The position numbers and the translations under genes were made by a program. Source: Deltaproteobacteria bacterium (GTDB lineage Bacteria > UBA10199 > DSSB01). From it: a stretch of DNA of 16,668 bases. Below the pieces are notes generated by a model. That model was not told the origin of the DNA, did no database searches, and was given only the letters and a program-made list of their open reading frames with translations. Location: NCBI GenBank assembly GCA_021414045.1, contig JAIOPF010000254.1:1-16668 (forward strand). Reading direction: 5' to 3'. Below, one piece after another: positions 5,498 through 16,668 of the stretch (its first letter is position 1; each line of letters opens with the position of its first letter).

Positions 5498-6129
5498 GTC
5501 CCGAGGAAGAAAAAGAAAAATTACGCGAACTTTTGGGGGCGGCGTTTTCCGAGGAGGAAATCGAAACCGCCCTGACTCTCGAACCCGACCTTGCCGCGGC
5601 GGCGGGAGCCTTGCTGGAGGAATTCTCCGCTTTGCGCTCCGACCAAGTTCCGCCATTGCCGGCGGATTTCGCTCAAAAAGTGTTGGGTCGCCTCGAAGCT
5701 TCGGACGCGCCGTCCCCTTCGCGAAAGTCGCGGTCGTTTTTTCCCAAGCTCGCTCTGTCCTCCGCCTTGGTGTTCGGGCTCGTCGCCTGGTTTTGGATGG
5801 GATATTTCCGCGCGCCCGTCATGGGCCCGCCGCTGAGCGTCCGGGAGGCCGTGGGCTCCGACCGACAAAAAGTTTTTTTCGTGCGCTTCGCGATACGCCA
5901 ACCCGCCGCGAAGCAGGTCGCGGTGGCGGGAGATTTCAACCAGTGGAAGCCCGAGGCGCTAAGCCCATCTTCGGAAGAAGAGGGGGTTTTTGCGGTCGAG
6001 TTGCCCTTGAGCGGCGGTGCCTACAGTTATTCTTTCGTCGTCGACGGTAGTCGGTGGATCCCTGATCCGGCGGCGGATCGCATCGTCGAGGACGGTTTTG
6101 GACAAAGGAATTCGGTCCTCAATTTGTGA
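5494..6129 (+). CDS. Putative membrane-anchored anti-sigma factor with C-terminal CBM48/AMPK glycogen-binding-like domain
   Basis: 211 residues, GTG start overlapping the sigma gene stop (GTGA), with GGAGG 7 nt upstream. Residues 1-70 are acidic and helical and could be a sigma-binding domain; they contain no cysteine, so no zinc anti-sigma (HxxxCxxC) motif. One membrane helix is at about 87-106 (LALSSALVFGLVAWFWMGYF). Residues about 124-211 form a CBM48/AMPK-beta-like early-set domain, with GDFNQW at 146-151, then YSYSFVVDGSRWIPDPAADR. The positive-inside rule (RKSR before the helix) puts the carbohydrate domain in the periplasm. The anti-sigma role is inferred from gene pairing and topology; the CBM48 call rests on clear motifs. 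Confidence 0.82.
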   Translation: MSPEEEKEKLRELLGAAFSEEEIETALTLEPDLAAAAGALLEEFSALRSDQVPPLPADFAQKVLGRLEASDAPSPSRKSRSFFPKLALSSALVFGLVAWFWMGYFRAPVMGPPLSVREAVGSDRQKVFFVRFAIRQPAAKQVAVAGDFNQWKPEALSPSSEEEGVFAVELPLSGGAYSYSFVVDGSRWIPDPAADRIVEDGFGQRNSVLNL

Positions 6130-6133
6130 AACT

Positions 6134-6901
6134 ATGAGACGTTTATTCGCCATCTTGGTTTTGTTTTTCAGTCTCGGAGTTGTCTTGCCGTTGAGGGCGC
6201 AGGCCGACCCCGAGCTCGCGCGTGAAGCCGCCGCGCTGGGAACGGAGAGTCCCGCGCTGAAGGCCTTGCTCGCGCGTGAAGCCGCTAACCCAAGCTCGCG
6301 GGACCTCGTTCTCGAGACCTTGCGCGGGGCGAAGGAACTGAAATCGCAAGGGCTTCCCCCCGAACCCTATTTGCTCAAGGCGAACGAGGGTTTGGCGAAG
6401 GGCCTGCCTCCGGAAAAAATTCTCCCGGCGATGCAAGAGTCCCGGCGCAGGACGGAGACGGCCGCGGGCCTGGTCGATTCGGCCTCGGCGAAGGAAACCG
6501 GGCTTTCCCCTCAAGCACGACAGAAGGCGATTTTAGAGATGCAGGGGGCCTTGTTGAACGGCGTTTCTCCCCACGATCTCGAAAAGGCGCTTCGGAATGG
6601 CCAGCCCAATTCCACAAATCTCGAGCAGAAGGTCGAGGCCACCAGCCGCGCCTTTTCGCCTCGTCGCCATGTCTTGATTGCGTCTCCTCCCATGCCGAAG
6701 CTGGAGCCCACTCTCCACGAAAGGTCTGACAAACCCGAACATCACGAATTCCACCCAGAAGCCATGGATACGAACGAGGCTTGGGGGCACCGTGGTAAGG
6801 AAAAAGGGAAGAAGGAGACTCGCGGGGGATTCGAGGGGGCCCAAGATCATGGGCGGGGTCAGGGTTTCCATCATGGCCAAGGAAGAGGCAAGAAAGACTA
6901 A
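6134..6901 (+). CDS. Secreted protein of unknown function with His/Gly/Lys-rich C-terminal tail
   Basis: 255 residues from the ATG at 6134, 4 nt after the anti-sigma stop. This start gives a good signal peptide (MRRLFAILVLFFSLGVVLPL, cleavage near RAQA-DP); an upstream extension in the same frame would only read through the preceding gene. No strong Shine-Dalgarno is seen, so translation is probably coupled. The mature part (about 25-185) is Ala/Leu/Glu-rich and helical with repeated short motifs (LAREAAALG, LLAREAANP). The tail (about 190-255) is hydrophilic, rich in Gly and Lys, with eight histidines, ending HHGQGRGKKD. No known family was recognised. It is the third gene of the sigma/anti-sigma operon, so it could be a regulon output or an extra sensor part. 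Confidence 0.75.
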   Translation: MRRLFAILVLFFSLGVVLPLRAQADPELAREAAALGTESPALKALLAREAANPSSRDLVLETLRGAKELKSQGLPPEPYLLKANEGLAKGLPPEKILPAMQESRRRTETAAGLVDSASAKETGLSPQARQKAILEMQGALLNGVSPHDLEKALRNGQPNSTNLEQKVEATSRAFSPRRHVLIASPPMPKLEPTLHERSDKPEHHEFHPEAMDTNEAWGHRGKEKGKKETRGGFEGAQDHGRGQGFHHGQGRGKKD

Positions 6902-6908
6902 GGCTGTA

Positions 6909-6941
6909 GGTGTGACCCTTTTTAGGCATCGACGTCACACC
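6909..6941. promoter_or_regulatory. Inverted repeat upstream of the His-tail protein gene (operator or leader hairpin)
   Basis: GGTGTGAC (6909-6916) and GTCACACC (6934-6941) are perfect 8-bp complementary arms separated by 17 nt. The element sits 9 nt upstream of the Shine-Dalgarno of the gene at 6963. It could be a protein-binding palindrome or an RNA hairpin; it lacks the T-run expected of a terminator after the stem. Confidence 0.5.
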
Positions 6942-6962
6942 CCTATATCTAAGGAGAAGCGA

Positions 6963-7712
6963 ATGAAAATCATGAATAAATGCGCCGCTATAGGTTTGAT
7001 CCTCGGTTTCTGGTCAGCCAGGGCTGGTGCCGTCGATATCAATTTGCTGAACGTGAATCTGGGTTCGCCGGAAGCCTCGCGGGCCGAGCAGCTTTATGGG
7101 AATGCCTATGGTTTTCAGCCCCAACAGGTGACGCCCGCATTATTGGGACCCGCCGAAGAGGTTCCCGCCATCATGCAGGTCGCCCAGGCGGCGGGGACGG
7201 TTCCGATGTCCGTGATGTTGATGCGGAAAATGGGCATGAGTTACTCGAGGATTTTGCAGACCTTCGCCGTCGCTCCATTGGTGGGAATGGGGACTCCGGT
7301 GACGGATTCCTATTATATTCAAACCAATCGGACGAATTTCCTGCAGAATATTTTGCATGTGGATCCGCTCTTTATGCCGAATATACCCATGAGCGGCCCG
7401 GAATTTACCCGTTTCATCGTCTACCCCACGCACAAGGACTATGGGTACTGGATGCCTCCGGGAATCGCGAAAAAATACGGGATGTGGATCCCTCCGGGGC
7501 AGGCCAAAAAGATGGGGATATGGGGTGGGCCCGGCAAGTCGGGATGGGGAAATTTTGAGGGCGAAGACGATGATGATGGCCATGGGCATGGCCATTTTAA
7601 AAAGGAAAAGGGAAAGGATGAAGGTTGGAAGCATGAAGCGAAAGCTTATGGCAATGAAGGAAAGGGTCATGGTCAGGGAGGTGGTCATGGGCACGGGCAT
7701 CACGGAGATTAA
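6963..7712 (+). CDS. Secreted protein with WxPPGxAKK repeats and His-rich metal-binding-like tail
   Basis: 249 residues starting at ATG 6963, chosen because AAGGAG lies 6 nt upstream and a signal peptide follows (MKIMNKCAAIGLILGFWSAR, cleavage near AGA-VD). The frame is also open upstream, but that stretch overlaps the preceding gene. Residues about 25-160 show no recognised domain. Residues 163-174 (WMPPGIAKKYGM) and 175-186 (WIPPGQAKKMGI) are an exact 12-residue tandem repeat, with a decayed third unit starting WGGPGKSGW. The tail (about 203-249) has an acidic EGEDDDD block, then nine histidines in Gly/Lys context, ending GHGHGHHGD. The tail could bind divalent metal. It resembles the tail of the protein encoded just upstream, suggesting a shared pathway. 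Function unknown. Confidence 0.8.
   Translation: MKIMNKCAAIGLILGFWSARAGAVDINLLNVNLGSPEASRAEQLYGNAYGFQPQQVTPALLGPAEEVPAIMQVAQAAGTVPMSVMLMRKMGMSYSRILQTFAVAPLVGMGTPVTDSYYIQTNRTNFLQNILHVDPLFMPNIPMSGPEFTRFIVYPTHKDYGYWMPPGIAKKYGMWIPPGQAKKMGIWGGPGKSGWGNFEGEDDDDGHGHGHFKKEKGKDEGWKHEAKAYGNEGKGHGQGGGHGHGHHGD
7446..7550 (+). repeat. Coding tandem repeat, 36-nt period (WxPPGxAKK units)
   Basis: Two adjacent 36-nt units (7449-7484 and 7485-7520) encode 12-residue repeats sharing W-x-P-P-G-x-A-K-K-x-G. A third unit begins at 7521 but loses the pattern after WGGPG. The repeat is visible in the protein; the DNA copies have diverged. Confidence 0.75.
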
Positions 7713-7864: not shown

Positions 7865-8416
7865 ATGACACCTATCAAGATTAGTTTCCAAAAAGATCCC
7901 GCTGATACGCTTAACGAATCCACCAACGTGTCTTCGTGCGGGCCTGTTGCGTTGGAGACCACGGCAAACTCCTCGGACTTGTCGGATCTTCCCGCTTTGC
8001 AGAGCTTGCTGAGTCGGATTCTTCCCGATGCCCGAGGCGCCTTGTCTCGCCGGGCGGATTTCTTCGCCTCCTCCAAAGAGGCCGGACTGCTCGAGACACC
8101 CGAGGCCGATCCCTTGCAATCTTGCACTCAACTGAACGTCAGCACCGGTTCGATTTATTTCGGCGACGTGCGAGTGAACAGTTCGGTCACCCAATACTTT
8201 CGGATCAGCAATCCGAACTGCTGCGCGGTCAACTACACGATCAGCGGCGGCGGTTATGGATTTTCCCTTTCGACCAGCGGCGGCACCATTCCGGCCAATG
8301 GCAGCGTCTCCGTGGCGGTGACCTTCACCCCTTACGTCGCCCAAAATTATTCCGGCTCGGTCAGCATCTCTCCCAGCGGCTCGGGCGTCAGTTTCACCGG
8401 ACGGGGAGTTCCCTGA
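7865..8416 (+). CDS. Small soluble protein with C-terminal ASH/HYDIN-type Ig-like domain
   Basis: 183 residues, ATG at 7865 with a GAGGG a few bases upstream. No signal peptide or membrane helix is seen, so the product is probably cytoplasmic. Residues 1-85 are polar and probably partly disordered, with one helical patch around LQSLLSRILPDARGAL. Residues about 90-183 form a beta-sandwich of the ASH (ASPM-SPD2-Hydin)/choice-of-anchor type: LNVSTGSIYFGDVRVNSSVT, then YFRISNPNCCAVNYTIS, IPANGSVSVAVTFTP and a closing SGSGVSFTGRGVP. Such domains mediate protein contacts, often as repeats in large secreted proteins; a single copy without an export signal is unusual. The gene lies alone between two intergenic gaps. 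No function can be assigned. Confidence 0.8.
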   Translation: MTPIKISFQKDPADTLNESTNVSSCGPVALETTANSSDLSDLPALQSLLSRILPDARGALSRRADFFASSKEAGLLETPEADPLQSCTQLNVSTGSIYFGDVRVNSSVTQYFRISNPNCCAVNYTISGGGYGFSLSTSGGTIPANGSVSVAVTFTPYVAQNYSGSVSISPSGSGVSFTGRGVP

Positions 8417-10024: not shown

Positions 10025-10107
10025 GTCATGAGGGGTTTTACCTCTCAGAGATGACATCTTAGCATTCATCACAGGGCCGCCCTAGGGCACTAGGGCGGCT
10101 TTTTTTT
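10025..10107 (+). ncRNA. Predicted ~83-nt sigma-54-dependent small RNA or attenuated leader
   Basis: Bounded by the predicted sigma-54 start (about 10025) and the intrinsic terminator. The 5' part can fold: TGTCAT (10024-10029) pairs with ATGACA (10051-10056), with inner GAGG (10030-10033) against CCTC (10041-10044) and an asymmetric bulge. A single-stranded linker and the GC-rich terminator stem with a U-tail follow, the usual layout of a bacterial sRNA. No protein is encoded in it and no known RNA family was recognised. It could instead be a leader whose terminator controls read-through into the gene at 10259. Confidence 0.4.
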
Positions 10108-10258: not shown

Positions 10259-13200
10259 ATGTCTGGCCTAAGTCTGGACGTTTCATCACCGTCGCTTCAA
10301 GACCTGCCCAACGAGGGGCATCCTCCTGCCTTTGAGGCCGATGACGGCTCGTCCGCAAAAAATCCCGATCCCACCTTGGAAGAATTTCGTAAATTAATCG
10401 GAAGCCTCGTCACGGATTTGCTGCGCGATGCCGGTGGCGCCCTGGATTTGTCAAAAATTCCCGCGAAGGATTTTGGAGAATTCAAGACGTTCATTCAAGA
10501 CCAAGCCGCGCAAAACGACGGGATGAGCTTCCGAAATCCCTATGAGTCTTTGCTGAAGCAAGAGCAGTACGAGCCCTTGCTCAAGGCCTTATGGGAAAAC
10601 CGATCGATTTCCCGGAACCATCCTTTCTCGGATATACTTCAAGATCTCTTTCAGCGGTTTCAGTCCGATTTCGTCGGCATCGATGCGGACCGTTTCGTCC
10701 AGCGAGAAATCGGCACAGCGGAAGGTCGAACGAAATTGAGAAGGATTCTCGGCAGCTCGGGATATTTCTCAAAGGACCGGAAAAGCGACTTGGTCAAAGC
10801 CATTGCCAAGGCCGGAGATCACCAGAAATTGGCTGTTGATTATCAGATCCACGGCGTCACCAATCAGATTTCGACCTGGAATATCTTCAACCTCTTCGTC
10901 AGCGACGAAGACTTGTCCAAAGCCACCGAGGCGGCCCAAGAGATCCTCGACTCCGCCGAGGGTATTCATCAGCGATCGGAGAGAATCCGGAAAAAAGAGG
11001 CCAGGGGAATGGGCGAGGTTTCGCTGCTCTCCGCAGATTACGTCGGGCGCGGGATCACCATAGACGAGTACCGCGCCTTCGAGAAAATCGCCGAGGAAAA
11101 ATCCCAGCGAAGCGATCCCGTCTCGAAAGCCCAGGCCCAGTTGGCGAGCCTTTGGTTATTGGCGGCCAATCAGTCGAATTGGAGCAGCGAGGACGCCGGA
11201 TCTCAATCCAAGGAGCGAGGCCATGTGATTCGCGAAGTCGAGGCGCTTTATGCCGGCGCGAATGCCATCAAGACAGAGGCCGACTTTGTTCGCTTTACGG
11301 GACATTTAAAGGAGTTTTTACACAGCCCCATCAGCGGGATGGCGACGGTGGAGGAGGGCACCTGGCAACGCACCCAGCGACAACTTTTGGAGGAAGGGAA
11401 GTTTCATCTGGGGCTGAATGGGCTGCCCCAAGTCTTCGCCGCCATGCCTTCCCAGCTTCGCGAGCCTTATGATCAGCTCGTCCAGTCCACGAATGAGTGG
11501 TCCGCTTCGATGGATATGGGGGAGACGATCCGCATCTCCAATCCTGGAGAACGAAATTCGGACATCGCGGAACCCGCAACGGCCAAGCTGGCCAAACCGA
11601 GTGTGAACCGTGAAGACCTTCGGGAAGTCATGGATGCCGGACCCTCCGGAGCGGAGCCAAGCGACGAAGAAAAGGCCCTGCGCCAACTCATCGACGGTTT
11701 GGAGCATGCCAAGCACCAGCTTTGGGCGGGATACAAGCAGCACAAGGCTGTTTCTCGAATGATCTCAGCCGCGGCGGACCAGATCGGCGCGGGCGACCGT
11801 CAGGACATCCGCAAGGCCAACCAATTTCTTGATCAGGCGATCGCGGGCCTGGGAAAAGCCAAGTCCAAGCTTGATGTCGAAGCCGAGATGAAGCGGCTCT
11901 ATCAGTCTTTGCAAAAGGACGGCCTGCTGTATCGGGCCTATGCCGCGGCCGAGATGGATGGGATCGAACAGGCCTTGGGATTGATTCAATCGGCGGCGAT
12001 CGCGATCGGAATCGGCATGGCGACCAAGGGACTTGGCACCGTCGCCCAAGTGGACATGGCCCTGTTCGAAGCCTCGATGGGATTGACGGCGACGCGCATG
12101 ATCAGCGGTTTCGGCATGGGAATGGCGACGACGACCGCCGAGAATTTGGTCGCCATCGCCTCGCGAGAAAGTCGGCAGGGCCCCGAGACGGCGGAAGCCT
12201 GGTTCAAGGATGCCATGGCGACGGGACTCTCGATGTCGATCACCGGTGCGCTTCCCGCAAGCCAGGCGGCGCACCCAAGCCTCCTCAAAAATCTTTGGGC
12301 GCGCTACGCCATGGGCGGCCTAAGCGGAGGGAAACATCTCGTTCTCGACACGCTCGCGGAGACGGTGGAGGAGGGGGTCGACCAGGTGGCTCGCCAGGCG
12401 ATGGACGGCAATACCCACGGACTTTCCTTGAACGAATGGCGCGAGTTGGCCTCGATTTCGGCATTGGGCGGTGGGGCCAAGGTAGGCGCTGTGGCCGAGG
12501 CGATAAAGGGAAGCAAGGCGATGGCGACCCGCGAAAGTTTATCTCCCACCAAATCAGATTGGAGACACTCTCCCCTGATCACGCATCCTTTGGGGAATTT
12601 ACTGATGGCCCCGCTCGGCCTTTTTCTCGGCGTGGGAGGCGGCGCCTTCTTTGGCCCGCAATTCAAAAAGAAACTCACCATCGATCGTAAGACCCTGAGC
12701 GAGATGGAGGCCTTTTCCCGAACCAAGGTCAAGGGTGACGGCGAGGATCATGCTGTGTTTTTTGGTCTCAACCATCTCAAATGGTGGTTGAGTCTCGTGT
12801 ACCGCGACATCGAGACCTTGGGAGCTAGGGCGATTTTCCAGGGTGGTGCCATTCTCTTTGCCCGCTGGCAGGGGAAGTCTGAGAATCGCAAAAAGACAGA
12901 AGCCGCATTGACGGCCTTGGCTGAGGAGGCAAAGTTTTCCGTAAAGTGGAAGGCGCCGACGGCTGAGGCGTATTGGCAAGAACTCTGGGAAAAGTCGCGG
13001 GTCGAGAATCCAAAAGTCGCCGCGTCAGTGCTCCAGCAACTACGGAAGGACCAAGCTCCATTGGCCCAAAACTGGTTGGAAGCCTTGGCGCAAAATGATT
13101 TCGATCGTAGCGAAGAAATTCGAAAGATCATGAAGGGTGAAGAGATTCGCCTCTCAGTGGCCTCACCCCCGCGACTCAAGGTCGATAATGTGGATTCTCT

Positions 13201-16200
13201 CAACTCTAGCATCGCCAAAGCCTATGATAAAGCCTGGACAGCGGCTTCTCTCGAGGAAACCCTGTCCGAGATCGCCGCGCTTAAAAAACAGGTGGAAGAA
13301 CTCCACTTTCTTCCCGAGGAAAAGCTAAGTGGCGAGCCTATTGCTGAGCAGAAGCCTGCCGCACCTATTCCAGTTGGCCGCGTAAGTACCGCACTTCATC
13401 CTCATGCGGCGAGGTTTATTGAATTATCGTTTGGTCACGATAAGGCATCGTCAGAACAAATTGAAGAGTGGATTGCGGCTGAGGGGCCTCGGTTACAGGC
13501 GATTTCTCGTGCCGTACAGGGGTACATCAAAAAAGTTCTCGGGGTGGAAGGTTGGGAACGTTATTTTGTCAAAGCTCGCCGCCAATGGGCGAGGGCGGCT
13601 AAGGTTCATTCAGGTTCCGATATACAGTCGCTTTATATCGCGCGAGTCATTAGTTCGCTCGAAGATGGCTCGTGGGTTTATCAACATCCTGATAATTTAG
13701 ATCCATGGCAATTTGCAAGGGAGACATCAGCGGCCGGTCTTCTTATTAACCAAGGTGTTGAACCAGCCCTAAGAAATGTTTGGAACAGGGGGGCCTCTGA
13801 GTACGCCTATCTCATGTCTGCCCACTTGGCGAAAGTTTTAGCCGAGGATATCGCCGCGCAGAAGGCGCTTGCATCTATCCCAATAGGCCCCGTAAAGGCC
13901 CCGCTTCATCCGCTCGCGGCCACGTTGATTAATAAGGTTTTTGGTCATGATGAAGCATCCGCAAATAAAATCGAAGCGAAGATTGCGGCTGAGCCTCCTC
14001 GGTTCCGGGTCATCCCTCGTGCCCTGCAGGGCTACATCAAAAAAACTCTCGGAGTGGAAGGGTGGGAACAGTATTTTGTAGAAGCCAGAAGCGACTTCGA
14101 AACGGCGACAAAGGACCAATCGCAACCCCTTGCAGAATCGCATAAAAAGGCGCGTCTCATTAGTTCACTTGAAGATGGTTCGTGGGTTTATGAAGTTCCT
14201 CGGGTTACTCCGTATGGCAACGAGGCGAATTTAGCGGCCGAGCACCTTCATTCGGAAGGCCTTGAATTCGCCCTGAAATGTGTTTGGGACCGTCATACCC
14301 ATGCCAATGTAGCAGCACTCAATCTCTCAGCCCACTTGGCTAAGCTTGTTGCCGAGCTTATTAGGTCGAACAATGCGCCCGCGAAAGGTTTAACAAGCCA
14401 ATTTACCCTTCAGCCTGGACTTGATTATCGGATCGGTGCCGATGCCAATAGGGACATCCCGATTCGTAATATGGGGCTGAAGAAATTTCATTTACAGGAA
14501 AATCTGAAGACCCCCGCAGATACCTACTTCGATACCCTCCCCAAGCGAGACCTCGCGACCATTCCTGAGGAATTCCGGCACCTCATCCCTAAACCCAAGG
14601 ACATCGTTCTCTTTAAACGTTTCAAGGAAATTTTGGACGAGACGGCTTCGCTGCTCTCGGCTCCGGAACGGATCGCCGTGCGCTTCTTCGGGCCGCCCGG
14701 AACGGCTAAAACCACGATTCCCGAGATGATCGCCCAACAGATGGGCGTGCCTCTCTTGCGTTTTCCCTTCAGCAAATTCACAGACCCCAGTGACATCGAC
14801 GGGCAGTGGAACCTGCAGGAAATCAACGGTGAGGAAAGCGTCATTTTTGAGGAAGGTCCCGCGACTCTCGCGATGGAGCACGGATTTCATTTGGTATGGG
14901 ATGAGCCCGATCTGGCGCGGCCCGGAACGCTGGCCTATGCCAATAATATTTCGGCGCCTGGCGCGACGGCCTGGGTGCGAGGCCGCGATGGAAACCTGCG
15001 GCGCATCGAGGTTCATCCCGGCTTTCGCGTCCTAGCCACCGAAAACGGAGTCACCGAGATCGGTCGAGACGAGCACGGCAAGGACTTCCTCCGACGTTTC
15101 GTCCCGTACCACGTTGGGCCCTGGACTCAGGAGGAAGTCGTTGAAGTTTTGACGCAAACTTTCGAGAGCTATGGCGGCAGGAGACGTTGGAGCCATAAAG
15201 TCACCGAGACTCTGGCCTTGTTTCACGAGCAGATGCGGAAACTCGCCGCGGGAGGCCGTGACCCTAAAAGCGGAGTCACCCTGACTCCTTTGGGTTCCGG
15301 CGTGGGGCAGACGCTTCAATTCACGCCGCGTTCAGTCCTGCGTTTGGCTCAGCGCCTCTTAGCCTCGGGTGGGCTGACGGCCGAAGGGCTCGCGCGCGCG
15401 CTTCGCTCCGAATATATCCTCCCCTTGGCCCTCGAAGAAGACCGGCGCTTGGTTTGGGACCAGGTTAAGGCGCTTTTTTCGGTGCTGCGATTGGGCGATA
15501 TCGGGCCTGAGAGCATTCCCCAACCCACTCTTGAGTCGCTTTCGAAAAAATACCTGGGGGGACGCAAGATTCAAAAAAATCATTTCGTGTGGACGCCTCA
15601 AGACCTGCGCCTCGCCGATGAGATCCTGTGGAACAAATCCCTAGGCATCGATGTCATGCTCTTGGGCGAGGCGGGAGAGGGCAAGACGGAGCTGCCGCCC
15701 CAGATCGCCAAACTGTTGCAGCTACCATATTTTCAAAAATCGATCAGTCGGGAGACGGAAGAGAGCGATCTGGTAGGTGGGCCAGGCCGCGAGGGCAAGA
15801 AGATCGTCTTTAAACCCGACGTGGTCACTCTCGCGACCGAGCAAGGTGGGCTCTTACATCTGGACGAGTGCCTGCTGGGCGACACCGCCAAGATCGAGGC
15901 TGTCTTCAACCCCTTGATGGACGGCACTCAAGCCCTTATTTTGAAGCATCCCTATCGGATGATTCCGCGGCATCAAGACGCCTTTTTCGTTTTTACCTCC
16001 AATCCGCCCTTTGGGGAATTTGCCGATCGCTATGAATACTCCGGAGCTTTACAGAGCCGCATGGCGACCATTTATTTAACGGGAGAATTCGCCAAGCAAC
16101 CCAAGGATCGCTTGGACATCCTGGAAGGTTACTTGGAGGGATTGGAGGGGAATGCTCGGTCCCTTCCCTCCGCGACACGCTTGGCCTTAAGATTGTCCCG

Positions 16201-16668
16201 TGAAGTGGGTAGGAGCAAAACGACACTTCGCTTCATTCCCCTGGTTCCCAACCAAGTTGCCCGGGATCGATTTCAGGTCCCGGAACTATTGGCGGTGGAG
16301 ATCGGGCCAGCGGCGATTCGTGAGATCGACGCGGAGGGCAGGCTGATTCCTCTTTCCGCGCAAAGCCAAAGCTCCCTCGAGGAATACGCCTCCTACCTAT
16401 CCCGTAGGACTCAGGCGGATATGGCGTCGAGCGGACGTGTTTTTCAGATCTCGTATTCGGTCCTTGGCTCCAACTTAACGGATTTCGATACTAGAGGCAT
16501 TCAGCTCAACCTAAGCCATGTTTTGGAACTTCCTTTGGATGCGGCTTTGGGGATTGGCAAACACGAATATGCTCACGCCCTTATCGACGGGCCTAGCGAA
16601 AAATACGACGCCCACCCTTGGGGACAGCTCTATGCCAACGCGGTGGGCGACCCGCGTATGCACGAGTA
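10259..16668 (+). CDS. Giant multidomain protein: helical N-terminal region, tandem duplication, two MoxR/midasin-like AAA+ modules, HEXXH motif; C-terminus beyond window
   Basis: The frame is open from ATG 10259 to the right edge: 2136 codons, no stop. The ATG is the first start after an in-frame TAA at 10202, with GAAGAGGGG 5 nt upstream. No signal peptide. Residues 1-560 are polar and helical; 566-640 and 771-803 (LLMAPLGLFLGVGGGAFFG) are Gly/Ala-rich and hydrophobic. Residues 1036-1369 hold a 170-residue tandem repeat. AAA+ module 1: Walker A GPPGTAKT (1478-1485), Walker B VWDE (D1548/E1549), sensor-1 N1596, arginines R1612/R1613. Module 2: GEAGEGKT (1803-1810), LLHLDE (D1869/E1870), sensor-1 N1915, possible arginine finger R1934. 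GPATLAMEHG before the first Walker B is MoxR-like. HEYAH (2102-2106) is a possible zinc site. ATP-driven remodelling is likely from the family; client and overall function are unknown. Confidence 0.9.
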   Translation, partial: MSGLSLDVSSPSLQDLPNEGHPPAFEADDGSSAKNPDPTLEEFRKLIGSLVTDLLRDAGGALDLSKIPAKDFGEFKTFIQDQAAQNDGMSFRNPYESLLKQEQYEPLLKALWENRSISRNHPFSDILQDLFQRFQSDFVGIDADRFVQREIGTAEGRTKLRRILGSSGYFSKDRKSDLVKAIAKAGDHQKLAVDYQIHGVTNQISTWNIFNLFVSDEDLSKATEAAQEILDSAEGIHQRSERIRKKEARGMGEVSLLSADYVGRGITIDEYRAFEKIAEEKSQRSDPVSKAQAQLASLWLLAANQSNWSSEDAGSQSKERGHVIREVEALYAGANAIKTEADFVRFTGHLKEFLHSPISGMATVEEGTWQRTQRQLLEEGKFHLGLNGLPQVFAAMPSQLREPYDQLVQSTNEWSASMDMGETIRISNPGERNSDIAEPATAKLAKPSVNREDLREVMDAGPSGAEPSDEEKALRQLIDGLEHAKHQLWAGYKQHKAVSRMISAAADQIGAGDRQDIRKANQFLDQAIAGLGKAKSKLDVEAEMKRLYQSLQKDGLLYRAYAAAEMDGIEQALGLIQSAAIAIGIGMATKGLGTVAQVDMALFEASMGLTATRMISGFGMGMATTTAENLVAIASRESRQGPETAEAWFKDAMATGLSMSITGALPASQAAHPSLLKNLWARYAMGGLSGGKHLVLDTLAETVEEGVDQVARQAMDGNTHGLSLNEWRELASISALGGGAKVGAVAEAIKGSKAMATRESLSPTKSDWRHSPLITHPLGNLLMAPLGLFLGVGGGAFFGPQFKKKLTIDRKTLSEMEAFSRTKVKGDGEDHAVFFGLNHLKWWLSLVYRDIETLGARAIFQGGAILFARWQGKSENRKKTEAALTALAEEAKFSVKWKAPTAEAYWQELWEKSRVENPKVAASVLQQLRKDQAPLAQNWLEALAQNDFDRSEEIRKIMKGEEIRLSVASPPRLKVDNVDSLNSSIAKAYDKAWTAASLEETLSEIAALKKQVEELHFLPEEKLSGEPIAEQKPAAPIPVGRVSTALHPHAARFIELSFGHDKASSEQIEEWIAAEGPRLQAISRAVQGYIKKVLGVEGWERYFVKARRQWARAAKVHSGSDIQSLYIARVISSLEDGSWVYQHPDNLDPWQFARETSAAGLLINQGVEPALRNVWNRGASEYAYLMSAHLAKVLAEDIAAQKALASIPIGPVKAPLHPLAATLINKVFGHDEASANKIEAKIAAEPPRFRVIPRALQGYIKKTLGVEGWEQYFVEARSDFETATKDQSQPLAESHKKARLISSLEDGSWVYEVPRVTPYGNEANLAAEHLHSEGLEFALKCVWDRHTHANVAALNLSAHLAKLVAELIRSNNAPAKGLTSQFTLQPGLDYRIGADANRDIPIRNMGLKKFHLQENLKTPADTYFDTLPKRDLATIPEEFRHLIPKPKDIVLFKRFKEILDETASLLSAPERIAVRFFGPPGTAKTTIPEMIAQQMGVPLLRFPFSKFTDPSDIDGQWNLQEINGEESVIFEEGPATLAMEHGFHLVWDEPDLARPGTLAYANNISAPGATAWVRGRDGNLRRIEVHPGFRVLATENGVTEIGRDEHGKDFLRRFVPYHVGPWTQEEVVEVLTQTFESYGGRRRWSHKVTETLALFHEQMRKLAAGGRDPKSGVTLTPLGSGVGQTLQFTPRSVLRLAQRLLASGGLTAEGLARALRSEYILPLALEEDRRLVWDQVKALFSVLRLGDIGPESIPQPTLESLSKKYLGGRKIQKNHFVWTPQDLRLADEILWNKSLGIDVMLLGEAGEGKTELPPQIAKLLQLPYFQKSISRETEESDLVGGPGREGKKIVFKPDVVTLATEQGGLLHLDECLLGDTAKIEAVFNPLMDGTQALILKHPYRMIPRHQDAFFVFTSNPPFGEFADRYEYSGALQSRMATIYLTGEFAKQPKDRLDILEGYLEGLEGNARSLPSATRLALRLSREVGRSKTTLRFIPLVPNQVARDRFQVPELLAVEIGPAAIREIDAEGRLIPLSAQSQSSLEEYASYLSRRTQADMASSGRVFQISYSVLGSNLTDFDTRGIQLNLSHVLELPLDAALGIGKHEYAHALIDGPSEKYDAHPWGQLYANAVGDPRMHE
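13364..13852 (+). repeat. Internal duplication, copy A (residues 1036-1198 of the giant protein)
   Basis: Copy A begins PIPVGRVSTALHPHAARF and ends SAHLAKVLAEDI. Its landmarks recur in copy B exactly 510 nt (170 codons) later, both at the start and the end, so there is no net indel. Conserved blocks are FGHD, QGYIKK-x-LGVEGWE and ISSLEDGSWVY. No known domain was recognised. The copy is AT-richer than its flanks. Confidence 0.9.
13874..14362 (+). repeat. Internal duplication, copy B (residues 1206-1368 of the giant protein)
   Basis: Copy B begins SIPIGPVKAPLHPLAATL and ends SAHLAKLVAELI. By hand alignment about 60 percent of the first 72 residues are identical to copy A; the centre (after the YF-V-x-AR block) is more diverged. 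Codons here also favour A/T at the third position compared with the AAA+ part. Confidence 0.9.

Follow-up and report, generated by a model that had tools for sequence, protein, structure and literature searches.

What does the giant open reading frame (ORF) at the 3′ end of the window encode, and to which kind of machine would its product belong? The window is the whole 16,668-nucleotide stretch analysed, contig JAIOPF010000254.1 of a Deltaproteobacteria bacterium (contig C127 of genome G000). On its forward strand, positions 10259..16666 hold 2136 codons without a stop, and the frame is still open at the 3′ contig end (16668). The original prediction described a giant protein joining tandem MoxR/midasin-like AAA+ modules to an HExxH segment. 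Pfam AAA_5 matches and motifs across 19 family members confirmed this description. The ORF probably encodes a remodelling machine of the MoxR-VWA fusion type, the two-module form within a small class of giant bacterial proteins; its full domain order would be helical head, domain X, FHA (most relatives) or tandem repeat (window), AAA a, AAA b, zincin-like domain, linker and VWA/MIDAS. The features of the ORF from its AAA+ modules onward are:

10259..16668, + strand: giant ORF, at least 2136 amino acids, cut by the contig end; ATG with GAGGGG directly before it
14618..15166, + strand: AAA+ module 1 (AAA1), residues 1454-1636, from Pfam AAA_5 and motif alignment; Walker A 1478-1485, Walker B 1548-1549, sensor-1 N1596, R1612/R1613
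15599..16126, + strand: AAA+ module 2 (AAA2), residues 1781-1956, from Pfam AAA_5 and motif alignment; Walker A 1803-1810, Walker B 1869-1870, sensor-1 N1915, R1934
16376..16666, + strand: zincin-like domain, starting near residue 2040 and truncated where the contig stops; from HExxH conservation and an AlphaFold2 model of relative P0016 (1737 amino acids)
16562-16576, + strand: HExxH, residues 2102-2106
16637-16666, + strand: NAVGDPRMHE, residues 2127-2136

A database of 5.8 billion proteins was searched, with scoring limited to the 7987 candidates that had most words in common with the query. This returned 25 matches: the window protein itself, 18 close relatives at 44-70% identity and, further off, 6 proteins with many AAA modules each, one of them named midasin. 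The core order of the relatives was domain X, FHA (15/18), AAA a, AAA b, HExxH domain, linker and VWA. A scan of named genomes revealed nothing with a single protein query and one locus with the family alignment. A frame break or assembly join had been named beforehand as grounds for abandoning the predicted layout. The ORF is not an assembly join, because P0003, a relative from another data set, matches the window protein in head (32% identical), core (58%) and domain order.

Pfam AAA_5 matched the window protein in two stretches, 14687-15100 and 15650-16063 of the contig, with a whole-protein score of 76.2 bits (E 3.2e-21; cut-off 22). Motif conservation was counted over the 19 family members, window included. 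AAA1 has the Walker A motif GPPGTAKT; its K and T, the DE of Walker B, the sensor-1 N and the RR finger were each kept in 19/19. In AAA2 (Walker A GEAGEGKT), the K, a T or S, the Walker B E, the sensor-1 N and the R were likewise kept in 19/19, and the residue before the Walker B E was D in 17 and E in 2. The two modules had been predicted to be complete in Walker A, Walker B and sensor-1, and they were, with this Asp to Glu change in 2 of the 19 as the sole soft spot. The arginine finger was also present, so that both modules have the AAA_5-type P-loop features of MoxR/midasin-type AAA+. A placement of the P-loop segments outside the MoxR/midasin clade, likewise named beforehand as an objection, was not observed: the best PDB match of the whole sequence was midasin (E 1.9e-25), and CobS, CbbQ and NorQ were further matches. 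The best single midasin stretch covered residues 1505-1955, which begin after the Walker A of AAA1 and extend across AAA2. The likeness to dynein that had also been proposed gained nothing from the PDB and protein searches, in which no match was named dynein and many bore no name. bpMoxR (PF20030) matched AAA1 weakly (29.8 bits; cut-off 27). The defence-system library gave only short P-loop matches to IetA, and PHROGs matches, all on the AAA modules, were to families labelled porphyrin biosynthesis, ATPase or unknown.

The window contig ends before the point at which a VWA/MIDAS domain was predicted, behind the HExxH segment. This domain was found in 17/17 relatives long enough, a count drawn from the 19 family proteins and P0026. 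All 17 proteins reaching the VWA carry D-x-[ST]-x-S, and the MIDAS Thr and Asp were present in 16/16 whose sequence covers both. The best sequence match of the VWA among solved structures was midasin-MIDAS; the best fold match of a relative's C-terminus was NorD-VWA by Foldseek (E 1e-8) and midasin-MIDAS by VIA-align. Among eight relatives' C-termini, Pfam matched CobT in one and CobT_C in three. A NorD/CobT-type VWA fold was found in this way in the relatives only. The linker between the zincin-like domain and the VWA is helical and of low complexity. In G003, a genome with the same family, one contig ends at position 385 of the zincin–VWA profile and another starts with the VWA at position 392, which fits one gene split by assembly into unjoined contigs.

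The HExxH segment, predicted as a possible metallopeptidase centre, proved to be a conserved zincin-like domain with a putative peptidase function. HExxH is not a chance motif, because 19/19 family members keep it; N-x3-[DE] was kept in 18/18 that reach that far. In the AlphaFold2 model of P0016, the zincin-like part exceeded pLDDT 80 in nearly every block, and the HExxH helix and the next helix, with N-x3-[DE], were modelled at high pLDDT. The same conservation, the presence of HExxH in all giant cousins examined (below) and this model would suit a giant metallopeptidase, in which the AAA pair unfolds substrates or delivers them to the zincin and the VWA only recruits. We judge this unlikely. 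In the helix after HExxH, 17 of 18 proteins have D as the acid partner and one has E, which makes the third metal ligand a guess only. No zincin was matched by Foldseek or Pfam, although this absence is uninformative for the fold, because the VWA filled the Foldseek/VIA-align list. The motif is like that of DUF2201 (PF13203, a putative metallopeptidase with a VWA-like partner domain), with HExxH followed by N-x3-D-x3-N in common, and to our knowledge no peptidase activity has been shown for DUF2201-type proteins, which also counts against a giant metallopeptidase.

Profile comparison showed that the one-pair HExxH domain is homologous to that of the giants (hhalign E 2.7e-9). For the zincin of the giants, DUF2201 metallopeptidase domains matched at E 4.7e-5, against 0.035 for the best of 100 column shuffles. 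The window's own one-pair zincin was not assigned to DUF2201, its match being at noise level (E 0.022; best of 20 shuffles, 0.021). The Pfam search for DUF2201 suggested in the original prediction gave no PF13203 match in the window protein or in the relatives' C-termini, and a PF13203 search of G000, G001, G003, G004, G010 and G044 revealed nothing.

How might such a fusion act? In a NorQD study (PMC13036017) and a midasin review (PMC6920918), the VWA docks on a MoxR-type ring with its finger inserted into the pore, and the proposal is that ATP turnover drives a twisting or pulling motion. By analogy, the AAA modules of the remodelling machine that we favour would form a six-module ring, for which the window's type would need three chains, each giving one (ab), while the giant cousins would have (ab)x3 within one chain. 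The C-terminal VWA would dock on the ring, inserting its finger into the pore in the manner of NorQD and midasin, and bind a client via the MIDAS metal, and ATP hydrolysis would twist or pull client or linker. The zincin, between ring and VWA, may bind zinc and cleave or hold the client. FHA, where present, may give a response to phospho-peptides; the window genome also holds apparent kinase–sigma54-type AAA fusions (below). The original prediction spoke of a self-contained machine. This would not hold for the window protein: two modules cannot close a six-module ring alone, and three chains would therefore be needed, whereas six-module relatives could do so in one chain. A zinc-peptidase-like domain in a MoxR–VWA machine raises the question of whether some such machines cut as well as pull.

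The region before the AAA+ modules had been described as about 1470 residues of novel sequence. As one block this was wrong; the region consists of a helical head, a conserved domain and two repeat copies:

10376..12538, + strand: N-terminal head, mostly helical, about residues 40-760, from AlphaFold2; common to four other ORFs of the same genome
12641..13228, + strand: domain X, about residues 795-990, conserved in all relatives; the shared family core begins with it
13529..13873, + strand: internal repeat copy 1, residues 1091-1205, from blastp of the copies
14039..14383, + strand: internal repeat copy 2, residues 1261-1375, from blastp of the copies

Domain X had no Pfam match; by alignment column analysis, all 18 relatives were 14-52% identical in each 50-residue block of residues 801-950. 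The repeat unit is about 115 residues long, and its copies are 48% identical (blastp E 7e-26). No FHA was found in the window protein with a profile built from the relatives' own FHA stretches, which lie between domain X and AAA1. The AlphaFold2 model of the head was helical and only middling (mean pLDDT 66.7), and Foldseek found no match for it among solved structures at E<=0.001.

The head recurs in the same genome on C184 (3676 amino acids, cut), C107 (~1700), C57 (908) and C138 (663, cut). It is also shared with P0003 and with proteins that have an LRR or HEAT/transglutaminase-like end, and the tails it stands on, LRR, HEAT/transglutaminase-like or AAA-zincin-VWA, are unrelated. Other relatives have N-terminal heads different from that of the window protein or none. 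Such exchange would be expected if the glycine-rich helical head were a transport or membrane module taking varied payloads into other cells, which would make the protein a delivered or surface effector. However, ATP-dependent modules suit the cytoplasm, and five relatives (P0007, P0009, P0016, P0017 and P0019) are headless, beginning almost at domain X. We regard an effector as distinctly improbable.

The remodelling-machine reading gains a wider setting from giant cousins of ~3700-6700 amino acids in the same genome and in relatives, which have four to six AAA modules in pairs. Zincin and VWA follow in all but one, whose contig ends first. Six modules as three pairs, then zincin and VWA, were found in G001:C21 (5337 amino acids) and in G044:C177 (4347; 4335 as P0034, a protein of a 'Deltaproteobacteria bacterium' metagenome-assembled genome). 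P0036 (6708, JGI source) has six modules, each matched in two pieces, and P0035 (4509) has four; both have the same C-terminus. C184 of the window genome shows five modules, one partly matched, before its contig end, and fragments in G004 and G010 hold one pair, zincin and VWA, cut at the contig end. HExxH was present in the giants examined (G001, G044, G002, P0034, P0035, P0036 and fragments L059 and L061). In a module tree, which left out P0035 and P0036, the a modules of G001, G044 and C184 grouped together and b grouped with b. Therefore, these three giants grew by pair repetition. The zincin–VWA C-terminus was detected in 7/46 genomes examined from the window's phylum (the same set as its class), six at E<=1e-40 and the window's contig-cut C-terminus at 5e-27. 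One-pair forms were seen in G000, G003 and G010, and the giants' line in G000 (AAA part only), G001, G002, G004, G010 and G044.

In one giant sub-line, Walker A reads GKN instead of GKT/S in odd modules (1, 3 and 5 of G001:C21; module 1 of L059 and L061), possibly with altered nucleotide handling.

Midasin (Mdn1/Rea1), the eukaryotic pre-60S remodelling ATPase, has the same plan of several MoxR-clade AAA modules per chain, a linker and a C-terminal VWA/MIDAS. The relatives' VWA matches it best by fold (VIA-align) and by sequence profile, and a single aligned stretch covers neighbouring midasin modules and the window's AAA pair. In contrast, midasin has six AAA modules and the window protein two (six in giants G001, G044 and P0036), the window protein has a zincin that its midasin-side matches lack (below), nothing corresponding to the family's head, domain X or FHA was seen in midasin, and the host is bacterial. 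By layout and VWA, the view that the protein works like midasin is supported.

Descent is a separate matter. On the midasin profile the window modules scored 75.8 and 46.4 bits, and seven single-module controls scored 129.9, 118.4, 57.1, 55.5, 47.9, 46.0 and 19.5 bits. The best control was called NorQ/GvpN-type from its neighbours and from NCBIfam matches far below cut-offs. A special kinship of the AAA sequences to midasin was not supported, as this control exceeded both window modules. An equation of bacterial a/b with midasin odd/even modules was dropped. Of 63 proteins tried, 59 had six clean modules, and in these the a model was preferred on average at every position, by 41 to 58 of the 59. 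Clade tests, with p-AU of 0.124 and 0.284, rejected neither a/b pairing. In the tree, modules 2, 4 and 6 of midasin did group (support 97/89), and the bacterial modules fell inside no single midasin module group. Because the AAA modules are no nearer midasin than the control and no a/b phase is visible in midasin, a fused-chain ancestor common with midasin is not shown by the AAA sequences.

A search with the last part of G044, with 1619 candidates scored, gave 66 matches among them: the query, C184, P0035, P0036 and 62 others. Acquisition of a midasin from a eukaryote would accord with the 28 of these 62 that are named midasin, most of the rest being nameless, and with midasin as top PDB match for both ends of the core. 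We consider it very improbable. The bacterial modules nest in no single midasin group, zincin was found in 0/62 of the midasin-side matches at E<0.1 (some of them partial), and every two- or four-module chain encountered belonged to the zincin-bearing side. P0097 and P0098 (5.7-5.8 thousand amino acids) lack a zincin but have a VWA-like end and six AAA modules of weaker match; they could be divergent midasins of protists.

In the literature consulted, one chain with six MoxR-type AAA modules and MIDAS is described only for eukaryotic midasin, and no title or abstract start in the open-licence literature searched named a bacterial midasin or giant AAA–VWA protein. Bacterial chains of two, four and six modules, formed by pair repetition, make the origin of one-chain AAA rings testable. 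Window-type proteins might be surviving intermediates between two-protein MoxR-VWA systems and one-chain rings, the pair having multiplied to four and six, with midasin (and via it dynein) descending from this path or retracing it; we find this scenario doubtful.

The family shares MoxR-type AAA and VWA with the two-protein systems NorQ/NorD, CbbQ/CbbO and CobS/CobT. Unlike these, it is one chain with two different adjacent AAA modules, an added HExxH domain and, mostly, FHA. Kaur et al. 2020 (PMC7159879) describe MoxR-vWA-beta-propeller ternary conflict systems (bpMoxR) as sets of separate components and report VWA systems with peptidase or FHA parts; the window family, in contrast, is one chain. 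No beta-propeller or vWA match was found in the eight upstream ORFs scanned, and the downstream side lies beyond the contig end. In G010:C15 (L053 1659-5558), a gene resembling haem-copper-oxidase subunit I is followed by a NorQ/GvpN-type AAA gene and a VWA gene. With the one-pair giant P0018 ending ~4 kb away, these two genes seemingly form an ordinary two-protein MoxR-VWA system beside a fused one.

One feature lies directly upstream of the giant ORF:

10073..10102, + strand: intrinsic-terminator-like hairpin (13-bp stem, then a T run) that separates the giant ORF from the phosphoglucose isomerase gene

The giant ORF is probably its own transcription unit, because this hairpin follows the phosphoglucose isomerase gene and GAGGGG precedes the ATG. 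No sigma-70-type promoter match was found upstream of the ORF, in the region by the hairpin.

An AAA_5 search of the window genome revealed eleven frames longer than 1000 amino acids besides C127 and C184. Two of them, C118 (L011 1312-5889, - strand; 1525 amino acids) and C112 (L055 2046-7115; 1689 amino acids), show by eye a Ser/Thr kinase-like start and a Fis-type helix-turn-helix-like end, with the AAA_5 match between; these are perhaps kinase-sigma54-activator fusions. Elsewhere in the window, a sigma factor gene and a CBM48-like gene are followed by two small ORFs whose frames overlap (6017-6901 and 6678-7712). Their tails are rich in His, Gly and Lys, and the portions scanned matched nothing in Pfam. 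The 183-residue ORF at 7865-8416 has an ASH/HYDIN-like Ig domain (Pfam ASH E 1e-7), a fold known mainly from ciliary proteins.
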